The position numbers and the translations under genes are program-made. From positions 1,240,001 to 1,304,000 of the forward strand of contig NZ_CP100404.1 of NCBI RefSeq assembly GCF_024218775.1: DNA of 64,000 bases. The letters are read 5' to 3'. This stretch comes from Haloarcula marina. GTDB taxonomy: Archaea; Halobacteriota; Halobacteria; Halobacteriales; Haloarculaceae. Shown in pieces: positions 26,432 through 30,098 of this stretch; position 1 is the first letter of the stretch; each line of letters opens with the position of its first letter. Under the pieces are notes generated by a model. The model did not search any database and was not told where the DNA came from. It was given only the letters and a program-made list of their open reading frames with translations.

Positions 26432-28519
26432 ATGGGGTTAACGTTCACGCCGCTCGATGAATGCCCTGGGGTCGAAGTTATCGACCCCGTCGAGCGACAG
26501 CGCTACCGACTCCTGACCCCCGACCCGGTTCAGCCGACGCCGGCGAGCACCGACACCTTCCGCTTCCCGGTGGGGTCGGCCGTCGACATCCGCACCAGCG
26601 CTATCGTCTTGCCGACGGTCGTTCCCGTGTACGTCCGCGACGCCGACGGCGGACTGGTTGCGGAGGTCAAGCAGTTCGAGTCCGCCGAGGTGCCCGCGGA
26701 CACCTACAGCATCGACCTCTGTACGCGCATCAAGACGTACCTCCGGGTCCACGCCGATTTCGAGGTCAGCGTCTCCATGGAGGAGACGCGCATCGAGTTC
26801 GCGGAGGAAGTCGACGTTCGGGTCGGCGCGCGCTCCCGGCACGAACGTCCCGCGGCGACGGTCACCACCACCGAGGACCCCCTCGACGTGATGGCCGCCG
26901 TCGAGACGTTCGGGTCGGCGCTGAAGACGACCGACCCCGAGCGGTCGTATCCGACGCTCCGCGGGCATCCGCCAGCGCTCGAACTCGGCGATTCGCTGGA
27001 CATTCCCGACACCATCGAGCGGCCCGACACCGGCATCACGCTGGAACTGCCGCCCGACCTCCCGTCCGTCTTCGTCGCCGCGCCGCTCTCGTACTACCTC
27101 GGCGCGTCGATTCGTCCCGGGCCGTCGCCACGCCTTCTCACCGACGACGGCTTCGAGTATTCGCTGGCCGGTCCCGACGGGTACGAACGCACCGTCGAAC
27201 GGACCCTCAAGCAGTTGTTCTTCCTCGACTGCGTGACCCGAACGGAGGGGTTCTACGAAATCGACCTCCACGAGCGCCGCGCGGTCGAACCCTACGTCGA
27301 CCTCGACTTCGCGGACCTGTACGACCGCCCGCTCTCCGAACAGGTCGCGGCCTACCTCGGCGTGTCGTACGACGTGGTCGCGGACCACGTTCCCGAGTGG
27401 CGACTCACCACCCACATCGAACCGCTCGCGGAGCACGCCACGCAGTTGCCGTTCGTGGTCGACGACCTCGCTATCGTCCGGACGCCGCAGGCCGCCCCGA
27501 CGACCGGTACCAGCGCGCCCGCGGGCTACGACCAGCAACTCACCCGCGCGAACGACTTCACGCGCTCGGCGAGCGCCGACGCCGACGCCGACTCTGGCAC
27601 TACCGACTACGTCGAACCGCAGTCCGACCAGACGCTGGAACAGGCGTGGATAGGCGACCGTATCCCCATCGGCGCGAGCAAACTCACCCAGGCGGCATTC
27701 GAGAACCGACTGGACCGCGAGACCACCGAGGGCGACATCGCCATCACCGTCGTCCAGAACGACGCCCGCATGGCCGAAGAGCGGGAAATCGCCGACGCGG
27801 TGTACGGCAACCGCTCGGACCTGCCGTTCGACATCACCGTCCGCGAGAACCTGACCACCGACGAACTCGAAGCCGAACTCCGCAAATCCTCGGACTTCTT
27901 CCACTACATCGGCCACACCGACCACGACGGGTTCACCTGCGAAGACGGCACGCTCGACGCCCGCGACATCGACGCCGTCGGCGTCGACACGTTCCTCCTG
28001 AACGCCTGTAACTCGTACAATCAGGGCCTTGCGCTCGTCGAACGCGGCGCAATCGGTGGCATCGTCACGCTCAACGAAGTGCTGAACGACGGCGCAGTCG
28101 CCATCGGTGAATCCGTCGCCCGCCTCCTGAACAGCGGATTCCCACTCCGCGCGGCGCTCACCATCGCCCGCGAGGAGAGCATCCTCGGCGGCCAGTACAT
28201 CGTCGTCGGCGACGGGGGAATCACGGTGACGCAACCCGCAGGTGGGTCACCAAATCTGCTCGAAATAGAAGAAGTGAGCGAAGAATATAACGTGAAAATA
28301 ACGACCTATCCGACTGACCAGAAAGGGCTTGGTAGCATCCACATGCCCTTCATCGGCAAGAACAATCTCTATTATTTGGCATCTGGGCCCATTGACGAGT
28401 TTGTCGTTTCAAAACAGGAGCTTTATAATTACCTTTGCTTAGAAGATATTCCAATAAAATTTCGTGAGGAATCTATCTGGAGTCCTGAATTTATCGAGAA
28501 GAAGTTACACAACCTCTAA
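26432..28519 (+). CDS. CHAT-domain (caspase-like) protein with an AT-rich C-terminal segment
   Basis: A 695-residue protein. The first ~370 residues form a beta-rich domain I do not recognise; an acidic linker follows (SASADADADSGTTD). Residues ~430-600 carry CHAT-protease features: FFHYIGHTDHDGF with candidate catalytic His495, and FLLNACNSYNQGLALVERGA with candidate Cys526, then EVLNDGAVAIGESVARLLNS. From about codon 603 base composition drops sharply (28261-28320 and 28381-28440 each have 24 G+C of 60; 28441-28500 has 20), while 28141-28200 has 43. The last ~90 codons look imported. A 44-residue hydrophobic protein is encoded convergently just downstream. Confidence 0.75.
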   Translation: MGLTFTPLDECPGVEVIDPVERQRYRLLTPDPVQPTPASTDTFRFPVGSAVDIRTSAIVLPTVVPVYVRDADGGLVAEVKQFESAEVPADTYSIDLCTRIKTYLRVHADFEVSVSMEETRIEFAEEVDVRVGARSRHERPAATVTTTEDPLDVMAAVETFGSALKTTDPERSYPTLRGHPPALELGDSLDIPDTIERPDTGITLELPPDLPSVFVAAPLSYYLGASIRPGPSPRLLTDDGFEYSLAGPDGYERTVERTLKQLFFLDCVTRTEGFYEIDLHERRAVEPYVDLDFADLYDRPLSEQVAAYLGVSYDVVADHVPEWRLTTHIEPLAEHATQLPFVVDDLAIVRTPQAAPTTGTSAPAGYDQQLTRANDFTRSASADADADSGTTDYVEPQSDQTLEQAWIGDRIPIGASKLTQAAFENRLDRETTEGDIAITVVQNDARMAEEREIADAVYGNRSDLPFDITVRENLTTDELEAELRKSSDFFHYIGHTDHDGFTCEDGTLDARDIDAVGVDTFLLNACNSYNQGLALVERGAIGGIVTLNEVLNDGAVAIGESVARLLNSGFPLRAALTIAREESILGGQYIVVGDGGITVTQPAGGSPNLLEIEEVSEEYNVKITTYPTDQKGLGSIHMPFIGKNNLYYLASGPIDEFVVSKQELYNYLCLEDIPIKFREESIWSPEFIEKKLHNL

Positions 28520-28573
28520 GAAGCAGATCGTACGAAATACTCTACCGAACCTTCTGCGAGTAAATTGGTCGTT

Positions 28574-28708
28574 TCAGGGGCCTGCAATAGTCGCACCGTT
28601 ACCTGCCGCCGCGCTCCCGGCCTGCGTCAGCAGGAGGAGAATCGTGAACAGTGCGCCGGTCATCTTGGGGTGCTCTGCGAGGTACGCCTTCATGCTTGAG
28701 TCGGACAT
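28574..28708 (-). CDS. 44-residue hydrophobic (signal-peptide-like) small protein
   Basis: An ATG at 28708 opens a 44-codon frame: MSDSSMKAYLAEHPKMTGAL, then a hydrophobic stretch of about 12 residues (LFTILLLLTQAG), ending AAAGNGATIAGP and TGA. The plan is an amphipathic start, the HPKM turn, one membrane or signal segment with an AAAG-like cleavage site, and a tiny polar tail. A strong TATA box (28732-28738) sits 24-30 bases upstream, supporting a real leaderless gene. It converges on the CHAT gene with a 54-base gap. The role is unknown: a membrane peptide, a toxin-like peptide or a substrate of the CHAT protein are all possible. Confidence 0.7.
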   Translation of the reverse strand: MSDSSMKAYLAEHPKMTGALFTILLLLTQAGSAAAGNGATIAGP

Positions 28709-29153: not shown

Positions 29154-30098
29154 ATGACGGCCGACGGCGGCCACTCGCAGGGAACCGAGACGATAGCGCT
29201 CTCGCGGGACATCCTCCGCGGGAGCGGTCGCGCGTCGCAACAGCGCGTACCGTTCATCCGGACGCAGTCCTCCGAGTCGGCGGAGGAGGTCCTGACCGAG
29301 GTTCCGATTCCGCTGGCGAAGGTGCGGTCAGACCAGCAGATACGGGTCCTGCACGTCGACGACAACCCGCAAATCGGGGAACTGATTCAGACGTTCCTCG
29401 AACGCATCAACGACGACCTGTCGGTGGTGACGGAGACGAGCGCCGTCGCGGCGATGGACCACCTGCGCGACGGGGGCGTCGACTGCATCGTCAGCGACTA
29501 CCAGATGCCCAACACCAACGGGCTGGAGTTCCTGGAAATCGTCCGCGAGCAGTACCCGGACGTGCCGTTTATCCTCTTTACCGGCGAAGGGAGCGAGGCG
29601 ATAGCCAGCGAGGCGATTCAGGCGGGCGTGACCGACTACATGCAGAAGGAGACGGGGACCGAGCAGTACGAAGTCCTCGCCAACAGAGTCGAGAACGCCG
29701 TCGAGCAGTACCGGACCGAACAGCAGTTCTGGAACGCGCTGTCGTGGTACCAGCGCCTCGTCGAACAGGAGATTGCGGGCGTCTGCATCATCCAAGAGCG
29801 GGCGTTCGTCTACGTGAACCGCAAACTCGCGGAGACCTTCGGGTACACGCAGAGCGAACTCATCGGCGAGTCGCCCGCTCGCATCACCGCCGAGGGAGAA
29901 GCCGAGCGCTTCTTCGAGTACGTCCAGTCCGACGACCACGGGTCGCTGGACTCGTTCGAATCGACGTTCACCGGCGTGCGCGCCGACGGCGAAGACGTGC
30001 CCGTCGAACTCTCCGGCGGCGCTATCGACTACGACGGGTCACCGGCGTGGATCGGTGTCCTCCGAACCGCCGAGGACGAAACCGAAGCGGGCGAGTAG
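29154..30098 (+). CDS. Response-regulator receiver plus PAS sensor protein (no kinase domain)
   Basis: A 314-residue cytoplasmic signalling protein. The REC domain (about residues 60-180) opens VRVLHVDD-like as IRVLHVDDNPQIGELIQTFL, with the phosphoacceptor Asp in CIVSDYQMPNTNG and the conserved Thr/Lys region in ILFTGEGSEA and DYMQKE. A PAS domain follows (LVEQEIAGVCIIQERAFVYV; FGYTQSELIGESP). It ends without HisKA/HATPase, so it must receive phosphate from a separate kinase or act through protein contacts. No partner kinase is adjacent. Confidence 0.85.
   Translation: MTADGGHSQGTETIALSRDILRGSGRASQQRVPFIRTQSSESAEEVLTEVPIPLAKVRSDQQIRVLHVDDNPQIGELIQTFLERINDDLSVVTETSAVAAMDHLRDGGVDCIVSDYQMPNTNGLEFLEIVREQYPDVPFILFTGEGSEAIASEAIQAGVTDYMQKETGTEQYEVLANRVENAVEQYRTEQQFWNALSWYQRLVEQEIAGVCIIQERAFVYVNRKLAETFGYTQSELIGESPARITAEGEAERFFEYVQSDDHGSLDSFESTFTGVRADGEDVPVELSGGAIDYDGSPAWIGVLRTAEDETEAGE

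Follow-up and report, generated by a model that had tools for sequence, protein, structure and literature searches.

The CHAT protease gene and the small DUF7503 gene that converge in the window, the 64,000-nucleotide stretch of Haloarcula marina DNA analysed here, probably form an order-wide two-gene recognition module, in which the C-terminal tail of a caspase-fold protease reads a cognate peptide and one recombination event swaps the ends of both genes. The features of the locus are presented in Table 1.

Table 1. Features of the CHAT-DUF7503 locus, in positions of the window
Feature	Position	Strand	Remarks
CHAT (caspase-fold) protease gene	26432..28519	+	695 aa; open reading frame throughout
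Putative catalytic His495 codon (HYIGH motif)	27914..27916	+	His in 140/140 nonredundant relatives
Putative catalytic Cys526 codon (LNAC motif)	28007..28009	+	Cys in 140/140 nonredundant relatives
AT-rich hypervariable C-terminal tail domain	28232..28516	+	Residues 601-695; from GC step, exchange and predicted fold
Inferred exchange block (CHAT tail, gap, DUF7503 end)	28232..28600		From identity profiles of pairs
Gap between the two convergent stop codons	28520..28573		Inside exchanged block; low identity in close pairs
DUF7503 propeptide gene	28574..28708	-	44 aa, MSDSSMKAYLAEHPKMTGALFTILLLLTQAGSAAAGNGATIAGP; Pfam PF24335, E=7.3e-23; genome's only copy
Variable last 8 codons (NGATIAGP) and stop of DUF7503	28574..28600	-	Putative mature signal
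Signal-peptide-like conserved part of DUF7503	28601..28708	-	Downstream exchange anchor; 90-100% identity in close pairs

Composition step and exchange block

The initial annotation had reported an abrupt fall in GC content inside the CHAT gene, in a frame that stays open. Its counts were reproduced, with 43 G+C per 60 bases at 28141-28200 and then 24, 28, 24 and 20 per 60 across 28261-28500, and the reading frame of 695 residues is uninterrupted. A scan of third codon positions places the change-point at codon 600 (log-likelihood ratio 36.6; GC3 falling from 0.88 to 0.47). The last 270 nt of the gene have a GC content of 0.404, against a mean of 0.673 (sd 0.023) in the body, where all 516 segments of this length reach at least 0.622. 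Across the 64 kb, 0.06% of 270-nt segments are as GC-poor as the end of the CHAT gene, and the low-GC segments all merge into a single region, 28221-28610. The AT-richness runs beyond the CHAT stop codon, through the gap and into the end of the convergent DUF7503 gene.

In pairs of close relatives, identity falls at about CHAT residue 600, stays reduced across stop codon and gap, and returns abruptly to 90-100% within DUF7503, giving a profile of 97%, then about 50%, then 98% identity. Over 73 pairs from 35 loci, which are not independent, the mean edges lie at CHAT residue ~600 and at DUF7503 codon -7/-8, the share of DUF7503 in the block being its last ~8 codons. The same profile recurs in several other genera, while CHAT paralogues of the genus without DUF7503 show flat identity through the tail. 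The distance between the two genes is variable. In many genera (for example at L104, L109 and L123) the stop-to-stop distances centre on -4, 0 and 1 nt, so that the stop codons adjoin or overlap in many lineages; in other genera they cluster at 45-100 nt.

The tail is one domain with exchanged alleles

Relatives of the CHAT gene were gathered as 42 loci from GTDB genomes and, in addition, from 32 genomes belonging to the genus. The alignment of almost every intact orthologue extends at least to residue 675, and G634, P674 and W683 are nearly invariant across their tails. The expectation of unrelated C-terminal ends behind a common joint is thus not borne out by the orthologue alignment; judged from these sequences, the tail is a single homologous domain that exists as deeply diverged, exchangeable alleles. 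Orthologue tails are AT-rich as a rule. Genus-wide, GC3 is about 0.83 before the common joint and 0.49 after it, and amino-acid identity, mostly 0.6-0.9 in the body, is about 0.45 in the tail; a marked drop is missing in a few members (L052, L053 and, weakly, L049). Natrinema-like genomes have little tail variation and little GC drop.

Species pairs whose bodies are 0.94-0.97 identical often have tails that are just 0.34-0.58 identical, and even at 97% body identity the tails can be as low as 34-57%, while other pairs have their tails in common. The body of locus L060, for example, is 0.96 identical to that of L061 and 0.94 to that of L064, whereas its tail is 0.92 identical to L064 and 0.37 to L061. 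Body and tail trees are mutually rejected (AU p 9e-40 and 1e-51). Between loci L057 and L066 the body dS is 0.118 and the synonymous difference of the tail 0.80, and synonymous sites are saturated in the tail only, not in the body. Within tail classes dN/dS is 0.05-0.19. Taken together, these comparisons indicate that the tails are old, functionally constrained alleles moving between lineages.

Two sources of the tails were considered and set aside. An archive of silent cassettes in the cell's own genome was rejected, as the genomes of the genus carry just the tail of CHAT itself and that of its paralogue; the sole exception is one decayed copy in genome G006, and the lack of spare tails makes another strain the donor. 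A single AT-rich donor is unlikely because GC3 in the tail rises with that in the body (r=0.40, slope 0.6) and because, of the tails linked to a peptide, 94% are lower in GC3 than their own body. The decayed copy in G006 (C1:7-1945) is a second CHAT gene with internal stop codons that adjoins an intact second DUF7503 gene.

Protease fold and active site

The CHAT Pfam match is weak (E=3.6e-4; 20.5 bits, under the curated cut-off of 24). The AF2 model of the protein (pLDDT 90.6, pTM 0.90) matches separase (1e-7), SAVED-CHAT (7e-7), gingipain and TPR-CHAT, and on the strength of this model the protein has a clan CD caspase-like fold. By analogy with clan CD proteases, His495 and Cys526 would be the catalytic residues. 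In the prediction the tail forms a compact domain, largely of beta structure, for which a fold search gave nothing below E=0.046. The PDB sequence search returned no match and NCBIfam nothing useful, family and fold searches found no TPR or HTH family in the CHAT protein, and the PADLOC models of anti-phage defence matched neither CHAT nor DUF7503.

The putative propeptide DUF7503

The Pfam match of DUF7503 reaches 80.3 bits against a cut-off of 27. From its charged start, which has an HP(R/K)M motif, the protein runs through a hydrophobic core and an Ala-x-Ala site to a variable end. Close relatives have low identity to each other only around codons -3 to -7. In a set of 107 distinct peptides with a Gly-Pro end, positions -3 to -8 are the most variable and position -10 is almost always Ala; all four Gly codons and all four Pro codons are used, which argues that selection acts on the amino acids. 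The Gly-Pro end is present in 117 of the 122 nonredundant loci, five being without it. DUF7503 therefore looks like a signal peptide followed by a peptide of 8-9 residues that almost always ends in Gly-Pro, and by the -3/-1 rule the variable stretch would start at the expected signal-peptidase cut site.

Pairing and distribution

DUF7503 is present in 331 of the order's 392 genomes and in 80 of its 95 genera; of 14 named control genomes, Haloferax volcanii alone has it. A convergent CHAT gene lies beside DUF7503 in 79 of 80 loci from other genera, which are best-scoring matches and not a random sample, mostly with at most ~100 nt from stop to stop. In a comparison of 140 nonredundant CHAT genes, GC3 drops on average by 0.205 where the peptide is present vs 0.034 where it is absent (rank test p=1e-6, phylogeny uncorrected), and peptide-less CHAT genes mostly have no GC drop. 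All five genomes of the genus that have the CHAT paralogue alone (G009, G012, G016, G021 and G025) are without DUF7503. This second paralogue (L002, at C1:2118024-2119607 on the minus strand of the same genome, and L068-L073) has no DUF7503 alongside, no GC drop and no hypervariable tail, and served as the negative control.

In some genomes of family f17 (for example G213, G142 and G178) up to 8-12 DUF7503 copies occur with many CHAT genes, so that a single cell may harbour more than one peptide-protease pair. Of 45 representative loci, 18 have a DUF7504 (PF24336) gene immediately upstream of CHAT (for example L124:6182-7255), on the same strand in the cases checked, which suggests from gene order a third component in some genera. 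No other conserved neighbour was found among the 45 loci, and DUF7504 is absent from this window. The next gene downstream here (29154-30098, plus strand) encodes a response-regulator receiver plus PAS protein.

Covariation of tail and peptide

Tail distance and peptide distance are correlated (r=0.76) in a set of 89 pairs whose bodies are almost the same. When tails are less than 0.10 apart, 0.09 of the 7 peptide positions differ, against about 2.6 when they are more than 0.40 apart. Partial Mantel tests that control for body distance gave 0 of 2000 permutations as high as the data, both in the genus and overall. Such covariation is partly expected from linkage alone and hence is no proof of binding. 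Residue-level coupling of the peptide with CHAT, used to place a binding site, gave no excess in the tail and was dominated by phylogeny. The strongest coupling falls on CHAT residues 486-548, around the dyad (mean z 4.56 vs 2.5-3.6 elsewhere, phylogeny uncorrected). Coupling near the catalytic dyad would fit a peptide that enters the active site, which is suggestive.

Proposed mechanism

In the model that we favour, DUF7503 would give a short propeptide with a signal-peptide-like N-terminus and a variable C-terminal peptide of 8-9 residues ending in Gly-Pro, and the C-terminal domain of the CHAT protease would recognise the cognate peptide and thereby control or aim the protease. The tail-to-tail arrangement would put both specificity ends side by side; because they are adjacent, a single homologous exchange with its anchors in two conserved stretches, the CHAT body and the signal part of DUF7503, could swap both ends and keep lock and key matched. 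The output would most likely be density or kin sensing through proteolysis, with killing on mismatch as another candidate. The protease has no evident export signal, and therefore an exported peptide would have to re-enter the cell or be met otherwise. We infer cognate recognition, physical binding, export, cleavage at the Ala-x-Ala site, access of the peptide to the protease and the biological output.

Alternative explanations

The main rival to this peptide-signal model is a cleaved membrane effector: DUF7503 would be a small membrane effector or substrate whose variable C-terminus is recognised by the CHAT tail and which CHAT cleaves, and a mismatched pair, formed for instance by cell fusion or mating, would release killing or fail to restrain it, as likened to caspase-like proteases acting on bacterial gasdermins or to fungal allorecognition pairs. 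The protease is intact, the hydrophobic core of DUF7503 could be a membrane segment, the peptide coupling peaks around the catalytic dyad (phylogeny uncorrected) and hypervariability suits allorecognition. However, the variable stretch is only ~8 residues long and begins at an Ala-x-Ala site like those cut by signal peptidase, the conserved Arg/Lys ahead of the core would put the variable end outside the cell, away from a cytosolic protease, and DUF7503 is not gasdermin-like by length or family; we therefore hold this explanation to be unlikely. Still less likely is that diversifying or balancing selection acts on the CHAT tail only, for example for recognising viral or rival proteins, with the DUF7503 end hitchhiking. 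Tight linkage by itself predicts covariation of peptide and tail, but it leaves the near-obligate pairing of CHAT and DUF7503, the small GC drop of peptide-less CHAT copies, the flat tails of the genus paralogues and the retention of Gly-Pro while adjacent codons vary as evidence to the contrary.

The initial annotation had read the AT-rich end as a C-terminal cassette of the kind seen in polymorphic toxin or recognition systems; on the toxin reading, unrelated toxin modules are swapped. Its claim of recombinational exchange near residue 600 is strongly supported by the joint, the identity profiles, the trees and the dS values, and a common joint with clear recombination would suit toxin modules as well. 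What fails is the nature of the module: the tails are all homologous, with conserved positions in common, and represent allelic diversity of one domain; no immunity-type gene is found at the joint, and the protein is itself a protease. The strict form of that reading is ruled out by the alignments and the reading as a whole is very improbable; it had also missed the reach of the block into the DUF7503 end. A dispensable tail that diverged fast in the ordinary way or under a local mutational bias would account for the low GC of the adjacent intergenic DNA, as would an artefact of assembly, and ordinary divergence was the outcome named beforehand as counting against exchange. It is excluded by the tree incongruence and by saturated tail dS beside unsaturated body dS, and the dN/dS within tail classes and the identical pattern in many independent genomes leave these explanations a negligible probability.

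Comparison with known systems

Little is known of archaeal peptide signals and of self/non-self recognition in archaea. The locus described here, which most haloarchaeal genomes have, shows the features of a ligand-receptor pair that is matched and diversifying, one partner being an intact caspase-fold protease. The chances seem about even that it is the first system of peptide signalling or allorecognition in archaea, with a hypervariable ligand-receptor locus across the order, a caspase-fold receptor and, for haloarchaea, compatibility groups. The peptide-signal model predicts the sequence of the mature peptide and a difference between cognate and non-cognate responses, and convergent geometry would be a general way of keeping lock and key together through recombination. 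Our literature search found no paper on DUF7503, none on the CHAT domain together with haloarchaea and nothing relevant on haloarchaeal peptide signals; these genes may have been listed earlier as candidates, and the 2019 survey of Makarova et al. in mBio may list related ones.

Caspase-like activity of haloarchaea has long been reported without a known gene homologue (PMC3615174), and the CHAT family is a candidate to test against it. With separase, SAVED-CHAT, TPR-CHAT Csx29 and gingipain the protein shares the clan CD fold and the His-Cys dyad, but it has an N-terminal region of its own and a hypervariable tail without a PDB fold match, and no CRISPR or SAVED partner is found in the window. 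Bacterial gasdermin-protease pairs have a gasdermin-family partner, whereas the 44-residue DUF7503 has no gasdermin match. Polymorphic toxins likewise combine a conserved body with an exchanged C-terminal part (PMC3482391), but there the parts behind a common body are non-homologous toxin modules, whereas the tails here are one family. The VARTIG modules of Thermococcales are an archaeal case of a hypervariable C-terminal domain, apparently formed by recombination; unlike the present locus, they involve a secreted Ig-domain protein and variable downstream gene sets, with no protease and no convergent propeptide (PMC8416519). Haloferax volcanii too encodes DUF7503. Its quorum-sensing signal is reported to be a secreted small molecule insensitive to proteinase K, with no peptide gene or CHAT protein implicated, and the same paper names filI of Methanosaeta as the sole archaeal gene with a demonstrated role in quorum sensing (PMC12240190).

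A close likeness is to Gram-positive pherotype loci, with a short precursor, a signal-type N-terminus, a short variable C-terminal peptide and a linked receptor. In these pheromone loci (comQXP and agr pherotypes; PapR-PlcR and other RRNPP pairs) ligand and receptor ends covary, and in our locus too the linked segments of the candidate ligand and receptor are hypervariable and exchanged together. The architecture of DUF7503 fits the small exported propeptide of RRNPP pairs, its export being putative, but the receptor of these pairs is a TPR-type cytosolic protein, mostly with a DNA-binding domain, and the candidate here is the CHAT protease. To our knowledge, neither pherotype loci nor VARTIG have a caspase-fold receptor or a convergent common block. 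The Gram-positive receptor is a kinase or a TPR regulator, whereas the archaeal locus described here would pair its peptide with a caspase-fold protease through convergent genes that have one hypervariable block in common.
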